From positions 963,725 to 988,779 of the forward strand of contig NW_003140814.1 of assembly GCF_000003605.2 (NCBI RefSeq): a DNA stretch of 25,055 nucleotides. The letters are read 5' to 3'. Below are positions 58 through 25,055 of this stretch, in pieces. Origin of the DNA: Saccoglossus kowalevskii (taxonomy: Eukaryota; Hemichordata; Enteropneusta; Harrimaniidae). The notes below the pieces were generated by a model that ran no database searches, was not told the DNA's origin, and was given only the letters and a program-made list of their open reading frames with translations. Both the position numbers and the translations under genes were made by a program. Position 1 is the first letter of the stretch, and every line of letters begins with the position of its first letter.

Positions 58-299
58 CTTCTCAAATGGAAACACTGAATCAATTTTTGGTTTGATTTTT
101 CCCGCTCTAAACATCTCTAAAAGAGCTGTAATTCCTTCTTTGATCAGATCTTTTTCCTCCTGTAACATTCCAAGATGAAATCCACAGACGGATTTGTTGG
201 CTTTTATCAAGGTCATACCATGGAATGATGGCATTTGGAACCAATTTTTTGCCAAGTTCCAAATTTTGCGATGTTCACCGATAACAAAGTTTGCCCCAC
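58..299 (-). CDS. VAT1: VAT1 coding exon 5 (residues 254-334)
   Basis: Acceptor CTTTCTTTCAG|GTGGGG and donor TTTGAGAAG|GTGGGT bound 242 bp, phase 1 in and phase 0 out. The exon encodes FVIGEHRKIWNLAKNWF, IKANKSVCGFHLGM and IKPKIDSVFPFEK, all characteristic of the VAT1 C-terminal half. The following exon is outside the window; only 57 bp of intron are visible. Confidence 0.94.
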
Positions 300-6200: not shown

Positions 6201-9200
6201 GTCATACCGTTGGTTGATTTATTGCCAAGAATCAGTTAACAGGTCAGGCTGTTTCCACCATCATTTGAAATATTTATGCCTTTATGAAATTCACTGTAGA
6301 ATTCAGTTAATTCCAAAACTTTTTTTCTCTACAGGATGAATTGAACAAATAATATTGCACACAATGCATGAACCTTAACTTCAGTTACCATGGTGACAAA
6401 AAATGAGCAGTATACTTACCAAAAACAATTATTTTACCCATTGGCTTTAACAATTCGTATCCCTTCTTTGTGTCTTTGCCTCCCAATGGATCCAACACGA
6501 TATCCACACCTACAATTGTACATTGGATATAAAAATAAAGAAATAATAAATGCATGGTCATATTCTAGGAATCTGATTTGGTTACTATGGTTACTGTGAT
6601 GTTATCTTGAAATCAATTGCTCAAGAGAAAAGTTATATATACATGTAGCTACCGGCATTGTATAGATCTTAAGAATTTGTCAAATCTGTCATGTTTCCTA
6701 AAAGACAATACCTATCGTACATTATCATCTGCTGGCACTGTAAACCATTATTTGTTATTAATATCAATTTTTGCAATATTACAAATAACATGGTTACGGT
6801 ACATTATGTCAGGGAACAGTGGACGCTAAGATGGGGGAAAATCCAACAATATTTGTGGGGTGAAAACGAGTATTGTTGCAGTCTTGCTCTCAAAAAATGG
6901 CAAAATTTTACGAAAGCCACTGCAACTAACTGCTTCTCTGGTAAATGTTTACTACTACGAAATTGGGAGAGTTCTCAAATTAACTAAAATTAAATTTATT
7001 TATTTATTTATTGCTCAACTGCTGGCCTGGAACTGAGTCTAAATACTCAAGAGATGTTCCATACAATGTATCAATATCATTATGCAAATAACTAAACTAA
7101 AATGTCATAGCCTCAAATCATTACACCAGTAAATATTTTCCTTTATGCAGTATGTCTTGGTACTCGGCATATGAATCAACCTCCATGCTTACTTTACAAC
7201 TATTCATTTTCACTGGCATTTAATTACATTATTTATTAATGCTTTGAGCGATTTCACAGGGTTTTAAGTTCATAAACTTGGCAGGAAAACAACAAGCTTT
7301 ATTGTTATTTTACAAGTTCATGTGAATTTAATGTAGCGTATTTACGTATTGGCGAAAATAGCGAAATTAAAATCCAGCGAATAATTAATGTGTTATTTGT
7401 AACCATCAAATAACCATGATTAAACAGATTTGTCACATGGCTGTCGCAAATTGCAAAAGTTTCAGCCAATCAAATTGCTGTACTGAATATTGGTATGCAT
7501 GAATTCATTTGAGGTCAATTTGTCACAGTCAAAGATAACCGCATAAATTCTAGAATGCTCATTGGGCAATTCAGCACAGCCGAAATACAAAATACTAATT
7601 TTTTGATATTTTCTGAAAATTATGACTTAGCAAGATGCTGACCTTTTGGGGCTATTCTGAGTACTTCTTGTTTGTAGTCTTTTGTTCTATAGTCTATCGG
7701 ATGTGTGATTCCATTTGCTTTGATGGCATCATGTTTATGCTCTGACGAAGTACCGAATGTAGTTACATTTGGAACTGTCTGGCATATCTGTGCAGCGGCA
7801 AAACCTACACCACCTTAGAGTAAAGAAATACAATATATTTATTAACCAAGGATACATTGTCATATATTATTATTATTATACTGACACTCGTAAATTATTG
7901 AACAATATTTTATCATCAAGTTTTTTATTTAAAAATAAGTGTGAGAAAGAAATTATTCCCAGAAATGTGTGAAGACAGTGTGTGATTTGATTCATGTACG
8001 ATTCGCATATGATTTGTGTATTATTCCTGTACAATTGATTTACCATTCATACTCCTATTAAAATAACTATAATTTATGCAAACGTTTATATATAGCAATT
8101 TGGGACAATGTACCGGTAACAATATATTTTTAGGAATTCTCTGTTTTGAAATCCACATGTTGGGCTCAAACCCCACCAAAACTAGTTTAAAACATGATAA
8201 ATGTGTAAAAAATATATCAAAGTCTCAAACTATCCCCATGATATTTTTATTTATATTTATTGCCCTGTAGCTCTGGTTGTATAACCTTGATTTTCTTAGA
8301 AAATTTTACCATGATTCCTATTTTGACGCACAAATATTGTTACATTACCTCAGCATGTGCATGACTTTTAATTGAAGTTCAAAAATGTCAATTGTATAAT
8401 ATGTAATGTATGTGAACTGTACATGAATCAAACCTACGTCCTCTTCACATTCAAAACCAAAATAAAAAAATTGCTGCAAAATTTGCCAGTGTCTATAACG
8501 ACAACATTCCGTATCGGAAATAAACAAGAAAAATTTATCCTGCACATTATGTGCAAGGTTAGACAATAGCCTTTATGCATGACCTCTAAAAAGGTGAACA
8601 TCCTGGTATTTTCGGGGTGCAATTTTACTATCAATAAGAATATCTCAATTATTGTTCCCAAAAATGCAGGCAGTTCTGTTGGAATTGCAATCTGATTAAA
8701 ATAAGATCCCATTTCCAGTTTTATTTTTCAGCTTTCATTTTTTTAAATATTTATTTTTATATTTTACTTTATTTTATTTGATTTTATTATTTATTTGCTG
8801 GCATTTTTTTTACAAGTTTTGTTAATCTCGAAATCTCACAAGGTATGTGGGATAGTTAAAGTAATACAAACTAAAATGTATGTAATACATGTAGTAATAT
8901 AAAAAATAATGAAATAATACAAATTTATAGTAAAAATAAAATAAAATATATAAAATTTAATTAAATTCATGCTGTACAATACATCATATTTCAATTAAAT
9001 TGTTGCAAGTTTAGAAATAATACACCTTGAACTTTCCAGGATGCATAACCTTTCATGGTCGTGCATAAGACACATTTTACCTGCTGCCATGTGAATAAGC
9101 ACACTTCTATTGGGTCGTAAATTGGCTAAATCAAAAAGCATAAAATAAGCTGTCAGATAATTGACAGGTATTGCAGCGGCTTCTTCGAAACTCATCTCAT

Positions 9201-9948
9201 CAGGAAATTCAAAACACTGATCAACTGGTAATGTAACATATTCAGACCACAATCCAGATTTGCTCATGCAAATAACACGTGCACCAACCTAGAAAAATAA
9301 ATTAATGTAGTAAGGGGTGTGGCAGTAGATTTAGGAGAGAGGGGAAACCCTTTAAAAAAAAAAAAGTGTTACAGGGAAATTAATATTTCTGAACACACGC
9401 TTAATGAAGAAAACCAACAACAAAATTTACAACAAAATCATCCTAAAATAAAAAATAAAATAAAAAAATTGCTCTGTATTTCTAATGATTAACTGTATAA
9501 TGTAAAAGTGTGTATATATTTTCCAATTGAATAATTATTTGAAAAATGGTCATATACAATTGGGACTTCTGACAATTCATTCTAGCGGTTTTTTTTTTGG
9601 TTTTTTTTGTTGGTTTTTTTGTTTTTTTTTGAGAAAAAAATAATGCTAGTGTCTTACCTTTGGACCCGTAACACCAAGGCCCAGCTTCACAACTACCCCC
9701 GAGCATTCATAGCCGAGCACTGCTGGCAATGTTGGACGAGGAAAATAAAGTCCCTGTCGCGCTGAAATTTCCGCGAAATTCAGTCCACATGCTTTAACTT
9801 CAACTAGTATTTCGCCCTCTTCTGGCACTGGCACCGACTTTTGCCATGTCTGGAGTTTATCATAACCTCCAAACCCTACCAGGACAATTGTTTTGGAAAG
9901 TTTGTCCAAATTCTCTTGTGCCGCTTCGGATGCGCGTTTCTCATCCAT
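58..9948 (-). CDS. VAT1: VAT1-like quinone oxidoreductase-type protein, partial (exons 1-5)
   Basis: The joined exons 9658..9948, 9081..9288, 7643..7813, 6420..6509 and 58..299 read open for 334 residues. Intron phases are 0, 1, 1 and 1, and the last exon ends in phase 0. The product matches synaptic vesicle membrane protein VAT1, a zinc-free medium-chain dehydrogenase/reductase related to zeta-crystallin quinone oxidoreductases. The family is linked to vesicle and mitochondrial membranes. A GroES-like N-terminal domain (about residues 18-150, with GYECSGVVV near residue 80) precedes a Rossmann fold with AAGGVG at 165-170. The VAT1-typical stretches GITHPIDY and SVCGFHLG follow. Vertebrate VAT1 has about 390-420 residues, so roughly 50-60 C-terminal residues should lie left of the window. 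The start ATG at 9946-9948 has A at -3 and G at +4. The gene is divergent from the RND gene. A VAT1L-type paralogue is not excluded. Family assignment is firm; function is inferred from the family. Confidence 0.95.
627..754. mobile_element. short inverted-repeat element (MITE candidate)
   Basis: A 128-bp GC-richer patch in an AT-rich intron has imperfect terminal inverted repeats of about 32 bp. The left end AAAGGCGGCAGTCGTCG mirrors the right end CGACGACCACCACCCTTT, and both arms continue to GTTC. No coding capacity and no clear target-site duplication are visible. Confidence 0.6.
914..1081. mobile_element. MITE family A, copy 1 (degraded)
   Basis: The left end TGTAAAATACTTTATTTT and right end AAAATAAAGTATTTTGCAG are inverted and match the copies at 2171-2281 and 19656-19821. 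The interior is about 100 bp and noncoding. The left-most bases have decayed, so the start is approximate. Confidence 0.75.
2171..2281. mobile_element. MITE family A, copy 2 (best preserved)
   Basis: This 111-bp element is nearly all inverted repeat. About 38 bp at each end pair with one mismatch and one indel, starting TACTGTAAAATACTTT and ending AAAGTATTTTACAGTA. Flanking TA dinucleotides at both ends fit a TA target duplication, as in Tc1/mariner-type MITEs. The superfamily is inferred. Confidence 0.85.
3472..3592. mobile_element. foldback/MITE-like inverted repeat, about 120 bp
   Basis: AGGTTATTACGAAAATACTG at the left pairs with CAGTATCCTCATAATAACCT at the right, about 30 bp with a few mismatches and extended by GCAAAGTA. 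Weaker pairing (GCACTCAGACAGT against ACTGTCTTCGTGC) continues inside, so almost the whole unit can fold. No target duplication is evident. Confidence 0.65.
4323..4476. mobile_element. MITE with repeated GCGGCTTCTATTA modules
   Basis: This 154-bp unit has perfect 19-bp terminal inverted repeats, TACTGTAAAATCTGTATTA and its exact complement. Three exact copies of GCGGCTTCTATTA (4348, 4384, 4432) and one variant (4450) lie inside in the same orientation. The ends resemble those of MITE family A (TACTGTAAAAT), suggesting mobilisation by a related transposase. Open frames crossing the unit on both strands are probably by-products of the modular spacing. Confidence 0.85.
4864..4869 (-). terminator. 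AATAAA poly(A) signal behind the candidate alternative exon
   Basis: The plus-strand TTTATT reads AATAAA on the minus strand, 31 bp past the stop at 4901. Such hexamers are common by chance in AT-rich sequence, so it only supports the exon call in combination. Confidence 0.35.
4901..5046 (-). CDS. candidate alternative last exon of VAT1 (or exon of a nested gene)
   Basis: Inside VAT1 intron 4, on the same strand, an acceptor-like ATTATTACTTTAG|GTGCTA opens a frame of 47 residues plus the split codon. The frame contains ECVNEIYQQLLSQCY and ends EKTDDVAT at a TAA. It starts in phase 1, exactly what exon 4 (ending ...TTTG) requires. AATAAA lies at 4864-4869 on the same strand, about 32 bp beyond the stop. 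If used, it would replace the C-terminal part of VAT1 after IIVFG with a polar, helix-prone tail. I recognise no family. It may instead be a fortuitous frame; the ATG at 5108-5110 would allow a 69-residue free-standing reading. Confidence 0.4.
5941..5985 (+). repeat. degenerate telomere-like (TTAGGG-related) tract
   Basis: The run TTTAGGGTAGGGTTAGGATT continues as AGGATTAGGGGTGG. It reads as a short array of TTAGGG variants. A smaller TAGGGTTAGGGTAG lies near 19298. Confidence 0.4.
6420..6509 (-). CDS. VAT1: VAT1 coding exon 4 (residues 224-253)
   Basis: A 90-bp exon lies between acceptor CAATTGTAG|GTGTGG and donor GTTTTTG|GTAAGT, phase 1 both sides. It encodes GVDIVLDPLGG and ELLKPMGKIIVFG, the cofactor-domain core that follows the substrate loop in VAT1. 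It could splice either to exon 5 (58..299) or to the candidate alternative exon at 4901..5046, since both take the same phase. Confidence 0.93.
6510..7642. other. VAT1 intron 3, about 1.1 kb
   Basis: No exon is visible. Around 7331-7386 the sequence GGCGAAAATAGCGAAATTAA resembles the interior of the family A MITEs and may be an eroded repeat. Nothing else is recognised. Confidence 0.7.
7643..7813 (-). CDS. VAT1: VAT1 coding exon 3 (residues 167-223)
   Basis: Acceptor TTTACTCTAAG|GTGGTG and donor CCAAAAG|GTCAGC bound 171 bp in phase 1. The exon completes the Rossmann motif AAGGVG and gives FAAAQICQTV, TTFGTSSEHKHDAIKANG and GITHPIDYR. The donor GTCAGC departs from the GTRAGT consensus, but reading frame and protein similarity support it. 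Confidence 0.93.
7814..9080. other. VAT1 intron 2, about 1.3 kb
   Basis: No exon is visible. The stretch from about 8725 to 8990 is extremely AT-rich (runs of ATAAAATA and TTTATTTT types). The small overlapping frames around 8345-8712 show no family resemblance. Confidence 0.7.
9081..9288 (-). CDS. VAT1: VAT1 coding exon 2 (residues 98-167)
   Basis: The exon lies between acceptor TTTTTCTAG|GTTGGTGC and donor GCAGCAG|GTAAAATG, phase 0 in and phase 1 out. It encodes VGARVI, the family-typical SFEEAAAIPVNYLTAY helix and VLIHMAA. The latter leads into the nucleotide-binding glycine motif completed by exon 3. Confidence 0.95.
9289..9657. other. VAT1 intron 1, 369 bp, with poly-T/G tract
   Basis: The intron includes an A-run near 9353-9365 and a T-rich simple repeat with scattered G at about 9586-9640. 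On the coding (minus) strand the latter is A-rich and lies just after the exon 1 donor. No other feature is seen. Confidence 0.8.
9658..9948 (-). CDS. VAT1: VAT1 coding exon 1 (residues 1-97)
   Basis: The exon starts MDEKRASEAA and runs to GVTGPK, then meets the donor AAAG|GTAAGAC in phase 0. It encodes the N-terminal tail and most of the GroES-like domain. The cysteine and histidine set of zinc-binding alcohol dehydrogenases is not seen, as expected for this branch. Confidence 0.95.
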
Positions 9949-10444
9949 TCTTTAGTCAGGTGACTAAATTAAACTTTGAACTCAGTCATAGTTCATCGAC
10001 CTTGCAGTACGCTATCAGACCAGACAACTCCACAAACACAAGAATATCGTTGGAAATTGGTATCTAAATGGGTACTTCGAAAATTTTCTGCGGTTTGAAT
10101 TTAAATAAAATTCGTACAATAAACATAAACTAAGGTAAAAAACACGTTTTTTTTGTTTTTGTTTTTTTAACAAGCTAAATTAGGATATTACATCATGCAG
10201 CAGCCGAAATGGCTTCGGTAGGCGTCAGAATGGAACAGAGCATTATGCAAATATAAAATAACGTCACCTGATTGGTCAACTGGATGCAGAGCTTCCCTTC
10301 TGATCTCACAAGCGCAAGGCATTACAGGTTGATCCTTTGAACGAACAGAAGCTATATTCATGTTTTGCGCAGTATCTATGTGAAATAACCCCAAAACTGG
10401 TGTGAAATTACTACACAGCCAAGTATATACCACAGAAAAGCAAA
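9949..10444. promoter_or_regulatory. bidirectional promoter region between VAT1 and RND
   Basis: The 496 bp between the two start codons must contain both 5' UTRs and both core promoters, unless upstream non-coding exons exist. The region shows a compact group at 10261-10280: ACGTCA (half CRE), CACCTG (E-box) and ATTGG (inverted CCAAT box). No convincing TATA box is positioned for either gene. Transcription start sites cannot be read from sequence alone. Confidence 0.65.
10261..10280. promoter_or_regulatory. CRE half-site / E-box / inverted CCAAT cluster
   Basis: ACGTCA, CACCTG and ATTGG fall within 20 bp, 165-185 bp upstream of the RND ATG and about 315-330 bp upstream of the VAT1 ATG. CCAAT and CRE elements are common in divergent promoters. 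Activity here is inference. Confidence 0.35.
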
Positions 10445-10564
10445 ATGTCTCACCGTCGATCAGTTATCATCGAACAAACGGGTTGTAAAATTCTCCTTGT
10501 GGGCGACAGTCGATGTGGCAAGTCGTCGCTGCTAAAAGTGTTCGTCAAAGAAAGCTTTACTGAG
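10445..10564 (+). CDS. RND: RND coding exon 1 (residues 1-40)
   Basis: ATG in context CAAAATGTC (A at -3) starts MSHRRSVIIEQTG, followed by beta-1 CKILLVG and the P-loop GDSRCGKS. The exon ends KESFTE at donor ACTGAG|GTACGT, phase 0. The second P-loop position normally Gly (Ras G12) is Ser22. Confidence 0.95.
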
Positions 10565-13500
10565 GTACGTAGATGGTTCATTTTCTGGAAATCTGTGTTC
10601 ACTGTTTTTACATCGGGTATTACTGTGTGCTACTGATACATACTCGTCGAAAAGTTAATATCGGTCTGTGATTTGTGTGGTGCGAACTGGCTACGTTGGT
10701 TTATCTCGTTCTTTGATCGATTCTACCGAGATCCATTGTTTACTCGCTAGCAGAAACCATATCGATATAGCCCGCATCGTGGAGAACGTATTGCCGGCAA
10801 ACTAGTATCAGACGATTGTATTGTATTCATGTGGTTCGTGAATGAGAGTACTGTATGTTAACACGATTTATAATTATATATATTTTTTATATATTGTTAG
10901 GTGTATGTTCCAACTATCTTTGATAATTCAACTGCCTCCTTTGAAGTGGAAAAATATCGAATTGATTTGAGTCTTTGGGATACTTCAGGTAAGATTTATT
11001 ATAACAGTACTGAGCCTAAGTTTGTAAACATATTCCGGATATCGATTGCTCGCCCGGAAAGCCAAAGGTCTAGTGACAATTCGTCGTCACCAGCCCGCCT
11101 ATTATCGGATGTTTGGATACGCCACCTCGTGTTATTCAAAAACATTGAGGCGTGTATCAATATACGGTGTCGAGTTGCTGTTAAAATTGATGTGTAACAG
11201 TGTATGTTGTTTCCACGGTATCCCGGAATAAGCTACCTGATATCCGAATCGCGACGTGTGGCGGACGTGATGAAATGTTTTAAGCGTTTATTTCATCGCC
11301 CACTAACATCAACATACTGATACTTTTGGAAAAATAAGCCCCTAAAATGAAGCCACTGTGCGTTACGAATGTTGTGTAATGCGATGTAGAGGTAGTTCCG
11401 TAAATATTTCTCTTGTGACCAACTTTTATAATTAGTTTTGTTTGTAGCGAGCCAGGAACCCACAGGAACAATAACACATCTGGAACTGCATAGTTCTACC
11501 ATGGAGGTAAAAAGAGAAGGAGTCACGGCCATTATAATCCTTCTAAACTTCTTTTGTTTTAGACAAGTTTAATCCTATAATTCCCTTTGTCTTATCATCC
11601 TTTCACCCCAGAATCGTCGCCGACGCGTCATTTACTCTCAAGCGTTGCTGCATACAGTACGCACTCCAAGGTCTTGTTTTACGGTGTCACAGTAAAAGCC
11701 AAATGACATAAAGCATGCGCAGATCTTTTATACGTGGAGGAATCGTGTTTGTGAGAACGGGAAAGTTGGAATTTTGAAAATCAGAGAATTTCTTGTTAAG
11801 TTTATGTAATTTTTCGTTTTTCAGCACATTTTCCGTTGTAGTTTTGAATCAGCAATATTGTAATGTTTCGAAACCTTGCTAGTACTGTTTTTTAGTCCAC
11901 AATAAAGTTCGTTTAATGATCTTTGCAATGGTGCATGGCATGGACCGCACCGCGTTGTACCGGAGACTGAATTTTTAGGTTCAAAATGACGCTTTTTGAG
12001 GTTTATATCCCTTGTATATCCTACTTCCTACGGCAGTGCGTCAACAAGAACTTCGCTGCATTTTTTTGTTATCGAGCAATCGTTTAGTTCACAGCATATC
12101 GAAAACAATTTTTCGTCTGTAATATGCTCTTCGATTTCGTTTACGTCTTCTGAATTGAAGGACGTAGCAGTTTCAGCATCGTAGTCAAACTCGTGCGCGT
12201 TATCGATCGTCGCAATATTTGTTTATAAGAATTTGACAGATTTGTGACGAAAATCACCGAGTGCCGCCGAAGGCGTCCGTAGTATGCTAATTCACGGTAA
12301 TCCTCACTGCGCTTAGAGGAAACTGTCCTCCTTGATCCGTTCGGCAAATAAACTCCCTGAAATATGTACAAACAGCGGCGACCATCCTGGTATCTTTGAT
12401 CTAAGCTTGGCTGTGACTCCTTCTCTTTTTACCTCCATGGTTCTACGAACTTCTACTAGGATGTATCATCATGATAAAGGGAATAAAAATCTATTCCCCT
12501 CTTCGATTCCTTTCGGTATCAGCTAAACAAAATAAATGTATGCACACCCCTAGGTCTACAGTTCAACATTGATGGACAAAAAAACAACAAAAAACACATC
12601 TGAAATATGGAGTACATGCAAATAAGAATGAAGTATGTCAATACATTTATAATCACCCTGGCTGAAACGGTTTAAACAACATTGGGCTAGAGCACAAACA
12701 ACATGAAATTTATAGTCTTTCCATACAAGTAGTAGTTACCGGTATATCATCACTCAAATTGGACAGACTAGATGTCAAATGCCTCTTCCATGCTTGAGTG
12801 ACCAGATATCGAAGTAAACAACATATTTCATAGATGTTATTTAGTTAGAAGCTTTTATAACTTTTGCTACATAAACACGGTTGTGTGCAGTGTTCTCCCC
12901 AGAAAAATGTTTCAGAGTGGCGGCTAATTTGCATATAATTTACATATCATTAGCATTTGTCTGAAGATAAAGAAAACAATAATGACAGGCTTGCATGGAT
13001 GAAAATGTGTCTTTATTTTTTAACAAATTTATGTAGAAGATTAAATGAATCTGCTGCTGTGTGATTTCTATGTAATGTTGATTCTTCGGACTTTCATGGA
13101 AGCCCAGTGATCTGCAGCTTTTGAGAACGCCATGATTGTCTTTGCTTCCCACTTCTATTAAATGACATGGCCTTCTTGTGCATCTCCGAGTGTGCGTGTT
13201 TATCGATAGCATATTTCGTAATAGTTATACATGGCATAGAATTCCATACCAAAGAACTATTTCTGGATGTTTTTAAGTTGAATTTTCCACATATGTGTCA
13301 CAGCATTCCTAAAAGATAAGAAATAGGAGCGAATCAATACTTGTATTTAAAAAATATCGTTACGATCAACACGAAAATAAACAAATTGCCGCCATTTTGA
13401 AAAGTCGCTAAACTTAAAAATTGCCACGATAAACTTTACCCAACTATTTCAAAACACAATACTAGTATTAGTTACTTTGATAAATCGTAGCCAACAATTT

Positions 13501-16500
13501 TTGAACTTCCAGAAAGAAGTCGTTTCCAAAAAAATGTTTCGACGATCGGCAAAAAATGAAGCCATACAAAAATTTACTAAACTAGGTCAAAACTCGCTTC
13601 CAAGTAAAACGCTACAAATAAATACTTTTTTTACCTTTGCCATCGGATGTTTCTCTCAGCCACGTATATTTTGTTGTCCATTGTGCATCAAATCTAGAGT
13701 TTATTTTTTTGCACTTTTCGTTGTAACATCATCTTGGACACGTTTAGTACCACTGCCGACAGGGGTACCGGTGACCGCGTTGCTGGTGGGTTTATCGCTC
13801 GCAACCAGGGGCCCAGCAGGGCGTTCTACGCGGAACCACAACGTAATATTTCTGCTGTTTGACATCGTTGCTTCTTCCAGCCAAATATGCTACTGAGAAA
13901 ATACTCGCTATTACCCCCAATTAAATAGGGCGAAAGTGTTTATTGTCGAAGTACGAAGCTGTATTAGTCCATTGTCTTTGCGTAATCACTGACATGTTTC
14001 CATTCACACCTGATTTGGCTCACAGTACCGGACGCTGATGACGCTGACTAACAGATTCGCACGTGTATTAACAAGCTAAAAGAAAGAGTAACAGGAAATG
14101 CCACAGAGTAGCGGGCAATCTCTCAGAGTAGCGGCATAAATAATGGAGTAGCGGCCCCGCTACGCTAAAACGCTTTGGGGAGAACACTGGTGTGCTAAAT
14201 GTTTTTTAATAACCATTTTCATAGTTTTGGGATATTTAATTAAAGCTTGAAATTGGTATGTTTAACACATAAAATTTGATAAAAGGACCCTTGATTCAGG
14301 CATGGATGTACTAAGAATGTACACTCTTAGTACATCCATGATTCAGGGGAGTAATTGGGAATTTGAGTCAAAGATGTTGGCTAGGTGGGAAAAGTGAAGG
14401 GAAGTGAAGCGAGGAGGGGTGGGGGGTAGTGTAACTTTCAACAAATATTTGGTTAAGGTAGCATTGTTGCGTTTCATTAGTTGCTTGACATCTAACCCTC
14501 CACAGGGGAAACAGTTCACAAGTACAATACAAAAGTCTGCTCCTAAGATCATGGTTCCCATTGTGAAATTTTCCAACCTAGGTCAAGGGCAAAGACTACA
14601 CTCAAGTAAATAGAGTTGATTAGATTATTTGTGCATTGTTTGTGTTGTGACTATTAAATCCGTAATCATGCTCCTTTTCATGGTTGTGTGAATTGTCTTC
14701 TTGTTATTTTGCTAACTGATGACCCCATGGTGGGTGTTAACACTTTCCTGGGGCTAATTGTTGACGAATTCGCATGTCATTCTCTGCAAAACAAAAAAAG
14801 ACATGACATAACTCTTCCAACGCAAGGTAATTTTCCTCTTATGTTCACCACACCAAGGGTTTAGATCCAAACCGCTTAACACTAGCACTCTGTTGTGAGA
14901 TATGTGTATAGAATTAAATTCCATTGTGACTGGCCAGTGAATTGTCTGAAGTATTGTGTAAAATTATTTAGTCATCAACAATAGACTGCATATTGATTGA
15001 ATAGCATCCTATAAAGATAGGCAGACGGACGGAAGTCCTACCAGATTGTTCACCTTACTGCATTCCTTAGAAACTTGACATGAGTCAATTCTATTGATAT
15101 AGCTTGTCTCATTTCTGCTATGTTCATAATGATGAACTTTATAAAATAAAAAATAAACTTGTGCTAAATAGAATTGAGAAAGTTGAGTTAGTATAGTTTT
15201 CCAGGCAGTGTATCATTAGGAAGTCATTGTTGTTTCAGACTTATGGTGCAAATGATCAAATCACGTCTGTATGAGATGGCCACGTTCACACTAACCATAG
15301 ACTTTTTAGGGTCTATGCACTAACATAGAAATTAACGCCCTAAGTTTTCCTGGTGTGTATAGGATGGACTTGAAATATTAAATTTGACATGAATTTGTTT
15401 ACAGAATATAACAAGCTTGTTTGATTTCCCTCTCTTTAATCATAACACATGCAGCTATTTTTTATAATTATACCTTTGAAAAATTATCCGCTAATGTGAT
15501 TCATCACATTACGTGGACTGTAAATGTGGTGAGGTCAGCTGTGGACGTGTAAATGCTCTGGGGACAAGTAAAAGATTACAATCATGACATGTTACTAATT
15601 TACTAAGAAACAACTGATATGTGAAGCCCACACCCAGATTAAATGACTGTATGATTCATTGTATGACTGGGGTGTATGACTCCCAGATTGCTTACATCAA
15701 GTAGCTGTGTAAGTAAAGTTGGGTGATATACCCCAGTACACAAATTGTGGTCATAAATAATTTGTGTTGATGTGTTTATACAGTATGTTTACGAAGCCAG
15801 CAAGATGACACACTAACCAGAACCTCGGTAAATCCTATAATTGCTGTTACTCCTACTCGCCTCCCTCCCTACCTTCCTTCCTTCCTGACAGTTCAAATTT
15901 CAAGGGATTCGCATACTATGAAATTAATTTGAAAGTTCCTCTGGTGCTTGTTACTGTTTGGGAAATCCTATAATGGCTTTTACTCTGTTGTCTATGGTAC
16001 CGTCCTCCCTTCCTGGCAGATTTCAAAGTTTAAAAGATTTGCATACTATGAAATTAATTTTAAACTTCCTCTGTCTGGTACTTACTACATGTACTACTAT
16101 TTGGGAAATCATATGACGAGTCTGTTTTTTTGTTCTACCTACCTCCTGAGTTCAAATTTCAAAAGATTTGCTAAGAAATAAATTTGTGAATTTCTTCTGA
16201 TATGAAGTATGTGTTACAAGTACGTGGACCTTTCACCCTATCCGTCCGTACAGATAAGATAAAACTTTATTACAGCTGAATAGAAAAAAAAACACTTTTC
16301 TATTTCAGTGGGAAAATGTAAAAAAGTAATAAAGTTCTAAAAGAGAGATTCAGTTTTCTGGCTATTTTTCGTCTCTAATAGAAAATGCTGTTTTAATGGA
16401 AGTAATGACTTTGTCTACAATTTTACATCCATGACGTAAATAAATTCAAATTCTCTATTTTCTGGTTCCAGTATAGGCACTTTCTTTGTTCAGTGCAAAG

Positions 16501-19500
16501 TTTTGGCCTCTGATGTCTGCTTTGTTCAATTTGTATTCTATGTACTTGAACCCTCCTACAAGAACTGTTTACATTAATCAAGGGATAATATTTATTGCTT
16601 GCCAGCCAGTAACCAAGAATTATAATAACATCATGGAAAAACAGAACTATAAAACTCACAACTGTGAAAAAACAAGCATTCGCTGAATAAACTATTCAAA
16701 ACAACATGGCCATTAAAACAAGTCAACAGCTGTGTTCGATCACGAATGAAAAATAGAATTGATTGTTGGCTATCGGAAGGCTTTGCTTTTGCCTATCAGA
16801 AGGCTTTGCTTTTCAGTAATTGCACACTGACATAGAATTAGTACGTACTCTATTTTATTTATCGTATCCCAGACTACGATGGCATTAAAACTACGATCTG
16901 TGATTCATCAGTCCTTGTTTTCAAATTACTAGTTTGTCCTTTAGGTCATTGAACTTTCCTTTTGATGCATGTAATTATGGTATAGTCCATTAGTAATACA
17001 TCGATAAATAAAATATATATTTTTTGCATTTAATTTTTCAATTCGTCTAATTTCTGTTTTCTTTCTAGGGTGTACGGAGTATGATAATGTACGGCCGTTG
17101 TCATATACCGAAACCGATTGTGTTGTAGTCTGTTACGATATTAGTGTGCCAGAATCGTTAGATAATGTCGTCGATAAGGTGAGTAAAAGAATCAGTATTT
17201 TGAAAAGTAGTTTAATTTTGGTGTTTTTCCCAATGTATGCATACTGTTTGTTATGACTTCAATAGAGCCGCACTCTGCTCTTCAGGGAATACATCCAATA
17301 TGATTTGATGCAATTACTGTAATGTCAGTGTCAGGGAACAAGGCATTTTTTTCCTACCACAGAGTTTATGCCTATATTCCCATGTACCGGTAATGGCTTG
17401 TAACTGAAAAATAAAAATTTGTTCTCGTATTTCCAAATGCTTTGCCTTATTACTGTGCATCTTTGCATAATAATTAATTCAACAAGTGGTTGCGAAAGTT
17501 GGCATTATATTGGGTAAAAAATATAAGTTTTGAATTTTACTGTGTTGGTTGTGGTTATATGATGGTACGTTTCTTCTACCTGTACAGAATCTACCGGTAT
17601 GTTGCGTTTGCTGTGGCATGAGCCAATAGATTGAAATTCCACAAATTCCTCGAGTCCACAAAGAATTGACACTGAAAATAGAGGCATTGTAATCCAATTT
17701 TGTTGTGATACAATAACCGTTGACTATGTGGATTTGTATCAGTATTATGTTTGAACTTGTAAATATAAGTTTATGTGGTCAGGGGATTTGTAAGGTATTC
17801 AAGGTTGTGGTCAGTGAAAATATTAAGTAGTCTTTACATTTCATTGAAAAACAAGTTTGTTGACTAGACCCTGGGATCAATTGAGTTTTGTTTCTAATGT
17901 TGATTGAACTGTGCCTAATCCTATTGTATGTTGGGCTTACTGGTAGTTGTGTTTATTTTATACATGCAAACTTCTTGTGTCAAGGGATTGATGGTATCTC
18001 TGTAGAGTTTCTGATTGTTAGATAAATCACCTTAGAAACCAGTATCCACCAATATGTACGAGTAACTTCCTAAATACACCACCCATTATATCATGATTTT
18101 TGATGCCACTCGAATATTTTGTTGTACCGTGTCAGTGACTTTTACTCAGCATGAAAAACAAGCATGTCTGAAGAATTTTCATCCTGTTTATCACTGGTAT
18201 TCTACTAATCTTTGAAAGCCCTGCAGAGTTTCCGTGGTTGTTCACTTGTAAGGAATTGTTGCCTAAAGAAAACAACATGGCCCTGGATGTATTGTGAACT
18301 GACATATGACCTATGTATGCCAGGATGTCTACTCAGTGGTGACTTTCCTGTTATCACTTCTTAGTTTATTCCTCTTGAGTTTGCATACTTGTACAAGTTT
18401 TTTTTTTGAAGGGGGACACCTAATTGCCGATCGGGTGCCTCTCAGTAGTTCTGATCTCAAATTCGTAAGTCTGAAACCTCAAATTGCAAAATGTTTAAAA
18501 ATACAATTAAATTTAAAATCGTGCTTATAAACAAACAGCATTTTTTTTTCTATGACGATTTATGATGTAGTTTTTTAATCTATGAAAATCAATAATCAAG
18601 TGAACCTGTTTTGCATGAATTCAATGTGTTTAAATACTCTTAATGCATTCATTTTTTGCTTTTCAATTTCAAGTAAAATCAGCTAAATTAAACCAGGTGA
18701 ACAAAGTAATAATATAATTCATTGTTTCCCTGCCAAATTTGTGAATAAGCTCAAGACATCAAAATAGTGAAGTTAAAAATGGAAAATAACTGATTTTACG
18801 GAAGGGCAGCTATACCATACGTAATGTAATTCACACAAGTCCAATACAAGGGCATTGATGCACCACTAAAGGCCACCGTTTATACAATTTCCAATATAAA
18901 GGACTTCATTTAACCAGAACTCTTTTGTTAAGTCGCTATAGACTTTATAATGAAATGGCTCCTGATGGGTGTGGCTTCATTTCTTTGTCATTTCCCCTTT
19001 CATTGTAGCGTTCTAGTTGCGATTACACAGTACTGTAAGGTGAATGTATGGCCGCTTTAATTATGGTCTGATTATGCTCCATTTAGTTACAGTCTAGACT
19101 TTACACTCGCTTGAAAACCAAACTGTCAGTTATCTGGTTTGAATAAACTATGTCTTTGTATCCCAGAATGTTGTTGGCAATGGTGGTGTTACAGTAAACA
19201 TAGTATTTCAAGTAGTGTATAATTGTGGATGTTCAAACTCGCCCAGGTTGAATTGATTCACTTTCCATGTACAGCATACTTTGGTATAAATAATATAGGG
19301 TTAGGGTAGTAAGCATCAACTAGCTAGTTCACTGGTCCCTTTGTTGCATTGTAAGCCATCTTGGCTTGTTTTTGTTATGGAAATAATGCTTGATGTCTTT
19401 GTTTTTTTTTCATTCATCTTTCAAGAGTAATTGAGAGTATTTTCTCTCATTACCATGATTACCATGATGATGGCCTTCAGTTAATCAGTGAAGCGAATGT

Positions 19501-22438
19501 GGTAGAGTAATGGATGTTGCACCAGACTAATGTTTGGTCGATCCTGGTTATAATTCTACCTTCTAATTCTTAAATGTTCGACCCCCTACCCTAGCTGAGT
19601 GTGCCACACTGGATGGAAAGTATTAGTGTTCGGCCAGGCCTGGTTGATGCCAGTATACTGTAGAATACTTTATTTTCGCTTGGAATTTATTTTCGCTATT
19701 TTCGCTGGACGAATGATTTTTTCCCTATATTTCACATTAAACTCATCAAAAATCAGTGAAAATAAATTCCATAAAAAACGGCCAAAAAGCCTTTTCAGCG
19801 AAAATAAAGTATTACACAGTAGTGCATTAAATTGTTGTTTGATAGAGGTGAATGCAAAACCCTGTCTAACATGAATATGGCTTCTGTGGCACTGTGTCAG
19901 CACTCACACTCATAATTCAAAGAAGTTGGGTGACATTCAATGCCCAAAACTGTTGCCTGGCACTTAGAAGCAAATTAAGAAAGAAAACATTTTTGAAGCC
20001 ACAAACTAAATATTTTTAGAGAAGCTGAGATCGAGAATTGTCAGTGTCAGTTTGCAACAAACTATGTATTTTAAAGGTGTTTTATATGGTTGCATAGAAC
20101 ACCTATCCAACATGATCAAGTTAGCTTAAAACTCCTGAAACTTATTAGCAATAAAGCACAATTTGTTGTGTAATTAATAATGTGGGAATTAGTCTTTTTA
20201 TAGTCAGATAAGATTTGATTGATGTGAATGTAGGATTCAACACCTGTGTTGATATGTGAGGTACATGTTAATAGACTGACATCATGACTGTGTATTACAT
20301 ACAATGTGTACGGCATGTATACAAAACATTGTTCACTGGATGGTGTTGTCAAACTTTAAATCAAGTCATCATGTCTGTTATGGGATCCATGCAGTGTCTT
20401 TAATTTAGCATACTAAAAAAAAAAAAATCGGCTGTTTGGCGTTATAAAACTATATCTGCTTTATAAAGACTTAAATTTTTCTTTTTCTTCTCCAGTGGTT
20501 TCCAGAAGTGCGACGATGTGGTTCTGCCGGAATTCCCATCATCTTAGTCGGTTGCAAAATGGATTTACGGAATGACATACATACTATTACAGAATTGGCC
20601 CAGAAAAGACAGATAACACTCACACATGAAAAAGTGAGTTTTACATTTCATATTACTTTTTAGTCCCTGTTCGGACGCAGTCCGAAAACGGGGACTTATG
20701 TTTTGACCTCTGTGTGTGAGTGAGTGCGTGCGTGTGTGCGTGCGTCCGGACCTGTATCTTAGAAATGCCTGGTCCAATCACAATCAAACTTCACACATAC
20801 ATCATACATGATAGTATACATATGCACGTCAATTTGTTTCACGATCTGATTCAAGATGGCCGAATGGCGGCCATTTTTGTGCTAAAAATCATCAAAAACA
20901 AGCATTTCTCAGCTGTTAACAGATGGATTTTGTTCAAACTTGGTATATACATTAGACGTTATAGGACCTTGATGCACATCATTTTGTTTTACGATCTGAT
21001 TCAAGATGGCCGAATGGTGGCCATTTTTGTGCTAAAAAATCATCAAAAACAAGCATTTCTCGGCTGTTTACAGATGGATTTTGTTCAAACTTGGTATATA
21101 CATTAGACATTATGAGACCTTGATGCAAATAATTTTGTTTTTTAGATAAGATTCAAAATGGCCGACTGGGCCATTTTGTTTTAATGAATGTGGTTCTCGT
21201 GCCATATTCTGACTTGCTTTCACTGATTATGTTCAAATTTTAAATATTCATTATACATCATGTCATAGATAACCATATATATTGGTTTGACGATCCTATT
21301 CAAAATGGACAAATGGTGGCCATTTTTGTGCTAAAAAATCATCAAATATCAGGCATATATATATGGATTTCGTTCAAACTTGGTACATATGTTAGACATT
21401 ACAGGTTCCTGATGCACATCATTTATTTTTCAGATCGGATTCGAATGGCTGTCTGGTAGCCATTTTGTTTTAATGATTGGGCTTCTAGAGCCACATCTCT
21501 TAAATGCTTTGACTGATTATATTCAAATTTTATATATTATAGTTATACATCATGTTATATATATATACATGTATTTAAAATGGCTGATTTTGAATGCTGT
21601 TCCAGAGCAATATCCCTCAATATGAACAAGTACTTTTTTGACGATCAGATACAAATTTCAATCATTTTAATGTTAAAAAATCATATTCCTGACATGGTTA
21701 TATTCTAGCTATATTACTATAAACAAAACTATATATATTAAATTTGATAACTAACGGGGACTGTGCCATGCATGGCTTGTTTTTATAATGAATTTCAGCA
21801 GTCACTCACTGGTATAACAAAATGACTGTCATCTCGTACATTCTGTCTGTTAATTAATCTTTACACGTACACCCTTTAAAGTGTACAAGATCAGGTAGTT
21901 AAGCATCTTATTTGATGACCAGTTTTATCGACTGTGTGGGTGGCAAATGAATGCATGCAGTGTCCTGCCTGTAATTTAACTATCGAATGTGTACTGTACT
22001 GATAATAGACCGATTGTTCTCATAACGTAAAAAAATAAACTGGCATAACATGGGTTGATAGATGGTTGCGTTATGTTTTTAGGGGAGAGCATGTTCCAAC
22101 TTTACATCAATGAATGTATGGTTGAACTGTATTTCTTTTTTGTTTTACAGGGTATACAAGTTGCCAAACAGATTGGTGCTGCTGCGTTTGTGGAATGTTC
22201 TGCCAAAAACTCCAGAAGCAGTGTCAATGAACTTTTTGAAATAGCCACTTTATCGTCGTTGGGAAAACTCAGCCTTCATAAGTCACTTAAGGGATTACCC
22301 TCACACACCAGATCACTGTCATTCAGAAGGAAAAAGAGCACTGGAGACCTGACACACCATAAGCTGAGAGTGAAAAGCACAGTGTTACAAACATCAACAG
22401 ACTCGTCTAAGTTAAACAAAAGCTGCGTTGTTATGTGA
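10445..22438 (+). CDS. RND: Rnd-type Rho family GTPase, GTPase-deficient (5 coding exons)
   Basis: The joined exons 10445..10564, 10901..10988, 17069..17178, 20496..20633 and 22151..22438 give a 247-residue protein, close to the 227-244 of vertebrate Rnd1-3. Intron phases are 0, 1, 0, 0. It has the G-domain motifs GDSRCGKS (20-27), YVPT (42-45), DTSG (67-70), GCKMDLR (125-131) and ECSAK (167-171), a basic Ser-rich tail and the CAAX box CVVM (244-247), probably farnesylated. The positions of Ras G12, A59 and Q61 are Ser22, Ser69 and Cys71. As in Rnd proteins, these should abolish GTP hydrolysis and leave a constitutively GTP-bound protein. Known Rnds act at the plasma membrane to antagonise RhoA/ROCK and loosen actin fibres, partly through p190RhoGAP. 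DNVRPLSY and the C-terminal extension separate it from Rho, Rac and Cdc42. Which vertebrate Rnd it resembles most is undecided; it is probably pre-duplication. Confidence 0.95.
10565..10900. other. RND intron 1, 336 bp
   Basis: A short intron with normal GTACGT...TTAG ends. Nothing else is recognised in it. Confidence 0.85.
10901..10988 (+). CDS. RND: RND coding exon 2 (residues 41-70)
   Basis: Acceptor ATATTGTTAG|GTGTAT and donor ACTTCAG|GTAAGA bound 88 bp. The exon encodes switch I (VYVPTIFDNSTASFEV) and LSLWDTS of the G3 motif. The effector Thr (T45) is kept. The position of RhoA Tyr42 is Ser50, unlike the Tyr of vertebrate Rnds. Confidence 0.95.
11491..12449. mobile_element. non-autonomous DNA transposon, about 0.96 kb, with ~35-bp inverted repeats
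   Basis: The left end (11491-11530) contains ACCATGGAGGTAAAAAGAGA followed by AGGAGTCACGGCC. The right end (12409-12449) carries the same sequence inverted with almost no changes. The interior is richer in CpG than its surroundings. It holds a minus-strand 62-codon acidic frame, and no complete transposase is present. Exact termini and target duplication are not resolved, and the superfamily is not identified. Confidence 0.75.
12028..12216 (-). pseudogene. ATG-less acidic reading frame inside the 0.96-kb element
   Basis: The frame runs 62 codons to TAG with no internal stop. It includes ATIDNAHEFDYDAETA, NSEDVNEIEEHITDEK and LFSICCELNDCSITKKC. The first codon is ATT followed by GCG in a context (CAAATATTGCG) one base away from a plausible ATGGCG start. 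It may be the decayed N-terminal region of the element's protein. I recognise no domain. The acidic, Cys-containing composition does not look like random AT-rich translation. Confidence 0.45.
13635..13865 (-). pseudogene. remnant transposon first exon (zinc-finger/hAT N-terminus type), frameshifted
   Basis: From ATG (13863-13865) a frame reads MSNSRNITLWFRVERPAG and on to VQDDVTTKSAKK, then stops at 13701 in a run of seven A. Shifting one frame at that run continues INSRFDAQWTTKYTWLRETS and DGK to a donor AAAG|GTAAAA at 13635. The phrase K-x-W-x-x-KY-x-WLRE resembles the start of zinc-finger regions in hAT-type and ZNF862-like proteins. The cysteines would fall in the next, missing exon. The gene is broken here. 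Confidence 0.5.
14101..14175. repeat. GAGTAGCGG subterminal repeats and short hairpin
   Basis: Three copies of GAGTAGCGG (14106, 14126, 14144) lie near the right end of the hAT-like element, the last within the hairpin GTAGCGG-CC-CCGCTAC. Subterminal repeats of this kind are usual transposase-binding sites. Confidence 0.55.
14293..14347. repeat. perfect 16-bp-arm hairpin flanked by direct repeats
   Basis: CATGGATGTACTAAGA (14301-14316) is exactly complementary to 14325-14340 with an 8-nt loop. GATTCAGG occurs directly on the left (14293-14300), and the same eight bases recur at 14340-14347, overlapping the arm by one base. This could be a tiny foldback insertion with its target duplication. 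Confidence 0.6.
15825..16195. repeat. tandem repeat of about 130 bp, nearly three copies
   Basis: GCATACTATGAAATTAATTT occurs at 15911 and 16041, and a diverged version sits near 16170. Shared flanking words (TTCAAATTTCAA, GGGAAATC, TCCTTCCT-type tracts) recur in the same order. Unit length is about 130 bp. Confidence 0.75.
16770..16813. repeat. 23-bp tandem duplication
   Basis: CTATCGGAAGGCTTTGCTTT and CTATCAGAAGGCTTTGCTTT follow each other with a 23-bp period. Confidence 0.7.
17069..17178 (+). CDS. RND: RND coding exon 3 (residues 70-106)
   Basis: Acceptor TTTCTTTCTAG|GGTGTA and donor GATAAG|GTGAGT bound 110 bp, phase 1 in and phase 0 out. The exon encodes switch II with Cys71 at the catalytic Gln position, then YDNVRPLSY and CYDISVPESLDNVVDK. 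Confidence 0.95.
19486..19565 (+). repeat. possible tRNA-derived SINE head (degraded)
   Basis: TGGTAGAGTAATGG (from 19500) resembles an RNA polymerase III A box. GGTTATAATTC, about 50 bp on, resembles a B box (GGTTCRANYCC) with two changes. The spacing fits a tRNA-like head. No cloverleaf or anticodon could be assigned, so this is not called a tRNA gene. Confidence 0.3.
19656..19821. mobile_element. MITE family A, copy 3
   Basis: The left end TACTGTAGAATACTTTATTT and right end AAATAAAGTATTACACAGTA are inverted. The interior is longer (166 bp in total) with further CGAAAATA/TATTTTCG words. TA borders both ends. Confidence 0.8.
20496..20633 (+). CDS. RND: RND coding exon 4 (residues 107-152)
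   Basis: Acceptor TTCTTCTCCAG|TGGTTT and donor GAAAAA|GTGAGT bound 138 bp in phase 0. The exon encodes WFPEVRR, the guanine-specificity motif GCKMDLR, and the Rho-type insert helix region ending ITLTHEK. Confidence 0.95.
20662..21762. mobile_element. about 1.1-kb element with 150-bp internal tandem repeats
   Basis: The left end AGTCCCTGTT and right end AACGGGGACT are inverted with one mismatch. The left end also folds (GTTCGGAC-GCA-GTCCGAAAAC). A GTGTGCGTGCGTG-rich stretch follows. Then come diverging repeats anchored by ATTCAAGATGGCCGAATGG near 20849, 20999, 21151, 21298 and 21439. The first two copies are about 95% alike over 150 bp. No transposase frame is evident, and the boundaries rest only on the short terminal match. 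Confidence 0.6.
20841..21600. repeat. tandem array, unit 141-152 bp, five or more copies
   Basis: Each unit contains ATTCAA(G/A)ATGGCC, a GGCCATTTTTGTGCTAAAAA segment and GTTCAAACTTGGTATATA. Spacings are 150, 152, 147 and 141 bp, with divergence increasing rightward. The first unit length is a multiple of three, which keeps a spurious 128-codon frame open (20720-21106). Confidence 0.8.
22151..22438 (+). CDS. RND: RND coding exon 5 (residues 153-247, stop)
   Basis: Acceptor TTTTGTTTTACAG|GGTATA opens GIQVAKQIGAAAFVECSAK, the last G-domain helix, then a tail with RSLSFRRKKST and terminal CVVM before TGA. In vertebrate Rnd3, phosphorylation of tail serines together with farnesyl recruits 14-3-3. 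The Ser/basic tail here could serve similarly (inference). Confidence 0.95.
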   Translation, partial: GIQVAKQIGAAAFVECSAKNSRSSVNELFEIATLSSLGKLSLHKSLKGLPSHTRSLSFRRKKSTGDLTHHKLRVKSTVLQTSTDSSKLNKSCVVM

Positions 22439-24146: not shown

Positions 24147-24413
24147 TCACAGATTTCTATCAAATTCGTCGTCTGTATTCTTCTCAAGTAATGCTGTTCC
24201 ATTAATTATCGGCCTGTCAATGAACTCAATTTGACAATCTCCAGCCAGTATCCAGTTTCCATAGGAACCAGTACAGGGTGCTTTTTCCAATTCAAATAAC
24301 ACAACAGTGTTGTCTCCAGTTTGCAGTATATTAGCGGGTACATAGAGTGTCACCTGAGGTCCTACAACAGGCCAGTAACGACCAAGGTTGAATCCATTTA
24401 TGTATACCTGGCC
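24147..24413 (-). CDS. GLB1: beta-galactosidase (GLB1-type), C-terminal coding exon, partial gene
   Basis: Acceptor GTATTTACAG|GGCCAG opens an 88-residue frame ending in TAG. It starts GQVYINGFNLGRYWP and continues GPQVTLYVPANIL, ELEKAPC, CQIEFIDRPII. This is the conserved C-terminal beta-sandwich segment of glycoside hydrolase family 35 beta-galactosidases. These lysosomal enzymes remove terminal beta-galactose from gangliosides and keratan sulfate. The catalytic TIM barrel and signal peptide would be in exons beyond 25055. RYWP and the APC...C pair favour GLB1 over GLB1L. The tail after FIDRPII is shorter than in human GLB1. It converges on RND. Confidence 0.93.
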   Translation of the reverse strand, partial: GQVYINGFNLGRYWPVVGPQVTLYVPANILQTGDNTVVLFELEKAPCTGSYGNWILAGDCQIEFIDRPIINGTALLEKNTDDEFDRNL

Positions 24414-25055
24414 CTGTAAATACAGTTGAGTCATTTGTTATCCAAAATTATTACCATGTCTGTCTCGAATTGGCAACAATTTCCATGGTTATGAACAATA
24501 ACTTGCTTTGAACCCCTCAAAAAATGATTGGATTCTGGTCAGTGTTCATGTCAGTTGAATTTTTTTTTTTTTTTTTTCTGCCAAAATATTGTGAAAATAC
24601 GCCCCACACCTTTTTTGTTTTAACATTTCATAACCAAAAACAAATTTTTTTTTACCATTATGTAAGATTAAAATGACAATAGTTGAATGAAACCAACAAT
24701 TCATCGCATGAAACAACTTCAAACCACTCGCACTGCAACATATGATTATTCATGGTTATTATTCCTTTGAGTGACCATGCCTTCTTTTATACATATCTTG
24801 TGGTATTCAAATCACAATTATTAGTAACCAACAGAAGACGTTTAAAAGTATCGTTTACATACTGTAAGGGCAGCTCTGCTCACAGTTAAGTAACTCAATT
24901 TTATCTCAAAGTATATTTTTACTGCTATATGAAGTGCTTTAAACTTGGAATTCTGTACAATGCAACTTAATCCTAAATGAACAAATTGCGTAACATGCCT
25001 GGCCAAAATATTTCCTCTGAATATTCATGTTTTAAGTCACATACATGTATGCATA
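24414..25055. other. GLB1 last intron (partial)
   Basis: Intronic sequence with a T-run of about 20 at 24559-24579. No further GLB1 exon could be recognised before the window end. Confidence 0.75.

Follow-up and report, generated by a model that had tools for sequence, protein, structure and literature searches.

In a 25,055-base window of the Saccoglossus kowalevskii genome (C3163:963725-988779, 34.3% GC), a VAT1-family oxidoreductase gene on the minus strand and a Rho-family GTPase gene that we assign to the Rnd subfamily (RND) on the plus strand are transcribed away from each other, with 496 bases strictly between their two start codons. The initial annotation had described divergent first exons, this same spacing and a combined span of 9658-10564 for the two exons, and our splice models reproduced all three exactly. 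We think it quite probable that this is an inherited head-to-head pair, in which ancestral VAT1 and RND genes stood back to back, human VAT1-RND2 is a surviving copy, and the spacer likely serves as a shared promoter. Since the window itself contains no N, with runs of N flanking it at C3163:960901-963724 and 988780-1015921, the pair is not an artefact of scaffolding. Bidirectional, or divergently paired, genes have been described as head-to-head genes whose transcription starts lie less than 1 kb apart (PMC3815023), and the starts of VAT1 and RND likely fall within that distance unless 5' introns exist.

The initial annotation also proposed that the pair matches the human VAT1/RND2 arrangement. 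The position of the human genes is in print: in two papers, a BRCA1 deletion is reported that extends from near VAT1 as far as the start of NBR1 and takes in RND2, pseudo-BRCA1, BRCA1 and NBR2, which places RND2 between VAT1 and BRCA1 at 17q21 and implies that VAT1 and RND2 are directly adjacent (PMC3207938, PMC3970959). The gene families are the same two in both species. As for orientation, we take the human genes to be divergent, with VAT1 read from the minus and RND2 from the plus strand and about 0.1 kb between them; this part of the proposed match, the divergence, remains an assumption on our side. In the open-licence literature we found no published account of VAT1-RND2 as a head-to-head or syntenic pair, the main text of PMC3815023 names neither gene, and that of PMC8851819 does not contain VAT1. 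Ancient divergent gene pairs are already known (PMC3815023, PMC5722932), and VAT1-RND would be a new member of that group.

The minus-strand gene was modelled as five exons down to base 58, giving 334 amino acids so far and an open donor at the window edge, and its ATG is preceded by an in-frame stop two codons upstream. Among 43 distinct PDB sequences with E values no higher than 1e-15, the protein matched human VAT1 at 389 bits (54.4% identity) and VAT1L at 308 bits (47.9%), while the next match, a quinone oxidoreductase, reached 129 bits. It is thus nearer to VAT1 and VAT1L than to the other PDB chains, and Pfam found PF08240 (ADH_N), PF00107 (ADH_zinc_N) and PF13602, so that both ADH domains are present. 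These comparisons bear out the earlier assignment of the oxidoreductase partner to the VAT1 family, as opposed to a generic quinone oxidoreductase. By its sequence, the gene would be either a true VAT1 or the common precursor of VAT1 and VAT1L, and it would encode a VAT1-family oxidoreductase-like protein. A four-row tree of VAT1 and VAT1L was rejected as evidence, because its sole inner branch was open and its outgroup branch was 4.76 changes per column long.

The RND model comprises five exons and four GT-AG introns, has its stop codon and encodes 247 amino acids in a reading frame that opens at 10406, 13 codons upstream of the ATG. By the exon lengths, the introns fall behind codon 40 (phase 0), within codon 70, the Gly of DTSG (phase 1), and ahead of W107 and of G153 (both phase 0). 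The scallop gene PyRnd likewise has five exons and encodes 239 amino acids (PMC4669188, Table 1). In alignment, the P-loop reads GDSRCGKS where RhoA has GDGACGKT, and switch II reads DTSGC in place of DTAGQ, which means that the catalytic Gln has been lost. Under the RhoA numbering that we assume, RND carries S, R, S and C where RhoA has G14, A15, A61 and Q63, so the residues needed for hydrolysis are replaced. A changed P-loop and the DTSG motif are common to RND and human Rnd3/RhoE and Rnd1 (PDB 1m7b, 2rex), whereas RND differs from both in having Arg for Gln at what we take to be RhoA position 15 and Cys for Ser where RhoA has its catalytic Gln. The basic tail holds 13 Lys or Arg and two Asp or Glu in 57 residues and ends in KSCVVM, a CAAX motif; a CAAX box with a final Met directs farnesylation, and the human Rnds presumably also end in KSC-x-x-M. 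From these residues, the RND protein is predicted to be GTP-locked and farnesylated. It would be a Rho-family GTPase unable to hydrolyse GTP, held at the membrane through its farnesylated C terminus, and it may antagonise RhoA as do the vertebrate Rnds, which have been reported to stay bound to GTP, to carry a farnesyl group and to counteract RhoA (PMC4319381).

The three top PDB matches of RND were all Rnd3/RhoE chains (215.5 bits for human Rnd3), followed by RHO1, which we take to be the yeast protein (188 bits), Rnd1 (185 bits) and RhoA (183-184 bits). Identity in the G domain was 55.2% to Rnd3, 52.0% to RHO1 and 46.6% to Rnd1. Given that these raw bit scores leave doubt, we built trees. 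With 10 sequences, RND grouped with human Rnd1, Rnd2 and Rnd3, apart from Rho, Rac, Cdc42 and RhoD/F, at a support of 100/98.9, as sister to the three; because the RhoF and Rnd2 rows of this tree are unverified sequences, an 8-sequence tree was made without them, and there RND again joined the human Rnds (100/99.7). A grouping of RND with RhoA and RHO1 was rejected in both (p value of the approximately unbiased test 0.0019 with 10 sequences and 0.0034 with 8), from what is a small sampling. RND and the human Rnds also have non-catalytic features in common, namely DNVRPL, TASFE (in Rnd3) and, close to the C-terminal helix, one additional residue (NSRSSV, QSENSV). These results support placing the GTPase in the Rnd subfamily on its sequence, and a position outside the Rnd clade, which would have spoken against the earlier identification, was seen in neither tree.

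We searched the whole genome (572 Mb, 4,830 contigs) in six frames, exon by exon, scoring only the best candidates, so more diverged copies are possible. The VAT1 search gave nine matches, five of which are the window's own exons and four of which are 35-41% identical; the RND search gave 20, the window's five exons and 15 others at 22-50%. By this search, no second copy of VAT1 or RND of comparable identity was found. The two best RND matches outside the window (48% and 50%) are exons of one gene on contig C4505, and a third exon of that gene (42%, 59.2 bits) scores above the window's own RND exon 2 (58.5 bits). The frames of the C4505 gene contain long stretches identical to human RhoA, and it reads as a RhoA orthologue.

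How would such a pair have lasted? With start codons this close, it is plausible that the spacer acts as a shared bidirectional promoter; the shared regulation at which the initial annotation hinted, like any functional link between the two proteins, would be read from this spacing. In the mechanism that we propose, an ancestor of both Saccoglossus and the vertebrates would already have had VAT1 and RND back to back, with human VAT1-RND2 as the vertebrate survivor of that arrangement. The spacer of fewer than 500 bases, judged by its length, may be a single nucleosome-free region in which transcription starts at two divergent sites, and may fire both ways as one open promoter region, and because a shared promoter would make it costly to split VAT1 from RND, the pair would have been kept. 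We further propose that, since RND would be unable to hydrolyse GTP, its activity would be set mainly by the amount made; a promoter shared with a neighbour over half a billion years or more would then hint at how RND dose is set.

Several observations weigh against this reading. The ratio of observed to expected CpG is 0.85 in the spacer (GC 0.365), compared with 0.66 for the whole window, and it takes the same value of 0.85 over VAT1 exon 1 and its surroundings (9449-9948). Over the first 1 kb from the RND start it rises to 1.44 (10445-10944) and then 1.41, which places the peak within RND; this could be an unmethylated promoter zone that reaches into the gene. The highest value over 500 bases (1.67, 11751-12250) falls within a transposon-like element in RND intron 2. 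A scan of 12 motifs found no GC box, NRF1, YY1, ETS, E-box or TCTCGCGAGA core in the spacer. In addition, the strands of the human genes are assumed, the pair was compared across a single non-vertebrate genome and human, RHO1 outscored Rnd1 as a match to RND, and RPL27, which we take to be a close neighbour of human VAT1, has two matches (PF01777) that both lie on contig C993 and none on C3163.

The spacer does contain an adjoining cAMP response element (CRE) core and CCAAT box, and such a pair occurred in 20 of 5000 first-order Markov spacers. However, both the motif scan and this test were chosen after the spacer had been inspected, and many motif pairs are possible, so we dropped the pair as a significant signal and keep it as a lead only.

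A weak shared-promoter signature, with the CpG ratio peaking in RND and a motif cluster picked post hoc, is what one would expect if the pair were inherited but neutral, lying in a region of few breaks, driven by two separate promoters and kept together without selection. The other side of VAT1 is compatible with such a history. There, in convergent orientation, we found a FAM117 gene on the plus strand (C3163:949083-951359; spotted by eye and confirmed by Pfam, PF15388, 6.4e-36), and we take chromosomes 17, 2 and 7 to carry the human FAM117 genes and 17, 2 and 12 the RND genes, all of these chromosomes being HOX-bearing. With these positions, the spread of both families would fit an old block that was duplicated with the vertebrate genome, and a whole block may thus be old. 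It has also been cautioned that some microsynteny may stem from low rearrangement rates (PMC5722932). Against a quiet region stands the absence of RPL27 from C3163, which suggests breaks around an intact pair, but this concerns a single presumed neighbour and is weak evidence given that C3163 is only 1.07 Mb long. We regard neutral inheritance as unlikely, though as deserving to be taken seriously.

In its surroundings the Saccoglossus pair differs from the human one: the neighbours found are FAM117 beyond VAT1 and a GLB1-like gene beyond RND, and RPL27 lies on a different contig. The NBR1 domain (PF16158) had no match here and none in the control either, and is uninformative. The unit that was kept appears to be the VAT1-RND pair, and the BRCA1 region at large is not evidently kept.

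That VAT1 and RND were joined independently in the Saccoglossus lineage and in vertebrates is very improbable in our estimation. In favour of such a coincidence, the comparison runs straight from Saccoglossus to human, past intermediate lineages (amphioxus, echinoderm, mollusc). Yet both genes are the right family members, and the genome search found neither of them again at comparable identity. On a rough estimate that assumes 20,000-40,000 genes, the chance of the same neighbour in the same orientation is in the region of 1 in 50,000; if one counts the three RND and two VAT1 genes that we assume for human, it becomes about 1 in 10,000, or roughly 1e-4 or less. We give equally little credence to the idea that the GTPase is a diverged Rho with convergent loss of catalytic residues and no Rnd at all, for which one can cite Rnd1 scoring level with RhoA and below RHO1 and an identity to RHO1 that is near that to Rnd3 and above that to Rnd1, but against which stand both trees, with and without the unverified rows, the rejected Rho grouping, the shared non-catalytic features and what we take to be a common KSC-x-x-M end, and the separate RhoA orthologue on C4505.

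Common descent of the VAT1-RND arrangement is very likely, and its reading as an ancient pair probable. If it was inherited, a hemichordate RND beside VAT1, as we take it to be in human, means that the pair was present in the chordate-ambulacrarian ancestor. The wider distribution of Rnd leaves room for a greater age. Rnd has been found in three bivalves and amphioxus, and these, like RND, are non-vertebrate Rnd genes; in the same table the Rnd column is blank for sea urchin, Ciona, fly, worm, Hydra, Nematostella and the sponge Suberites, and a blank there is no proof of absence (PMC4669188, Table 2). A bilaterian age for the pair depends on the bivalve loci. We put forward only tentatively, and would not bet on, the fuller scenario in which the pair dates back to the deuterostome ancestor or further, perhaps to the bilaterian one, and is held by one shared promoter, with Rnd an ancient bilaterian gene that was born or fixed beside VAT1 and lost in several lineages.

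The depth of this comparison depends on the source of the DNA being ambulacrarian, and the mitochondrial contig of the assembly, C4830, bears on this. Its COX1 frame has seven internal TGA codons. ATA stands in it where the COX1 of other animals mostly has Ile or Val. The query covered nine of the frame's 10 ATA codons, masked as X, and these align to five Ile, two Val, one Leu and one Met in PDB chain 7o37_a and to five Ile, three Val, one Leu and no Met in 8d4t_N; the only AAA that was masked falls on Lys in each of these chains, which we take to be mammalian. ND1 and COX2, recognised by eye, agree with the reading of ATA as Ile and AAA as Lys, the AAA sites falling on lysines that we believe to be conserved. 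AGA was seen at one informative site (in ND1, by eye), and among the NCBI tables with TGA as Trp, the combination of ATA as Ile, AAA as Lys and AGA as Ser is confined to the pair of pterobranch tables. COX1 is on the strand opposite to ND1 and COX2, presumably a departure from the usual deuterostome order. The mitochondrial genome on C4830 is rearranged and uses an ambulacrarian code. ATA as Ile has been reported as an ambulacrarian synapomorphy, with AAA read as Asn in echinoderms and as Lys in Saccoglossus (PMC2697986), and the mitochondrial gene order of Saccoglossus kowalevskii is described as derived (PMC3121625). This code, ambulacrarian with the Saccoglossus reading of AAA, is not that of a vertebrate and fits a hemichordate close to Saccoglossus, so the pair is best read as inherited from the ancestor of the deuterostomes.

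If true, the pairing has some consequence for the history of Rnd. A 2015 review describes Rnd as vertebrate-only (PMC4319381), and the Saccoglossus gene argues against that view; a hemichordate Rnd would fill the ambulacrarian side of the distribution. The pair is positional evidence that non-vertebrate Rnds are true orthologues of the vertebrate ones, and the presence of VAT1 alongside could then serve to trace them. For human genetics, it would mean that part of the BRCA1 neighbourhood probably predates vertebrates. A published parallel is the PDI-RhoGDI pairs, which likewise set a redox-protein gene beside a Rho-pathway gene and have long been kept; these are other genes, and co-induction and protein interaction were tested there (PMC5722932).

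Table 1. Features of the VAT1-RND locus, in window coordinates
Feature	Position	Strand	Basis or remark
VAT1 exon 1, ATG at 9948	9658-9948	-	splice model; human VAT1 match
VAT1 exon 2	9081-9288	-	splice model, AG|exon|GT
VAT1 exon 3	7643-7813	-	splice model
VAT1 exon 4	6420-6509	-	splice model
VAT1 exon 5, gene runs on past the low end of the window	58-299	-	GT donor after FPFEK
Intergenic spacer, candidate bidirectional promoter	9949-10444	.	496 bases between start codons
Adjoining CRE core (TGACGT) and CCAAT box	10261-10275	-	the window's only such pair within 25 bases
RND exon 1, start codon and changed P-loop GDSRCGKS	10445-10564	+	splice model
RND exon 2, effector loop, ends with first base of the DTSG Gly codon	10901-10988	+	splice model
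RND exon 3, remainder of the Gly codon, then C replacing the catalytic Gln	17069-17178	+	splice model
RND exon 4, VGCKMDLR	20496-20633	+	splice model
RND exon 5, basic tail with final KSCVVM, and stop codon	22151-22438	+	splice model
GLB1-like beta-galactosidase open frame, tail to tail with RND, outside the pair	24147-24437	-	PF21467 1.5e-14, PF13364 1.3e-06

Beyond the pair, the right flank continues from the GLB1-like frame through a run of N to two rhodopsin-type receptor genes at 1022017 and 1028492. These form a single-frame tandem (C3163:1022017-1022985 and 1028492-1029577), the first recognised by Pfam as 7tm_1 and the second by the likeness of its frame, and minus-strand frames at C3163:1033468-1037877 look retrotransposon-like, with RNase H, integrase and a zinc knuckle visible by eye. 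Neighbouring genes may have been missed, as N makes up 50,069 of 100,000 bases in the left flank and 27,548 of 80,390 in the right. A codon-usage scan for flanking genes passed eight segments, three of which (VAT1 exon 1 and the two receptor frames) came from its own training set, and added little. Two further long frames in the flank and one of 60 amino acids in the window had no Pfam match, and nothing in the window reached the gathering threshold of Rfam.

The window also contains several repeats. RND intron 2 holds an element of about 940 bases (11498-12441) whose 34-base ends are inverted repeats of each other (97%) and which, by eye, is flanked on either side by GTTCTAC. It is probably a DNA transposon of the non-autonomous kind that duplicated 7 bases of its target. 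A second element in the same intron, at 12887-14190, has ends that read CAGTGTTCTCCCCA ... TGGGGAGAACACTG by eye and are approximate. Fold-back repeats at 917-1081, 2148-2304 and 19656-19821, with arms 72-95% complementary, seemingly belong to one family (TACTGTAAAATACTTTATTTT...). Degenerate internal repeats of caagatggccgaatgg-like units were seen by eye in RND intron 4 (20660-21780), and sequence resembling them also occurs near C3163:947720-948200.

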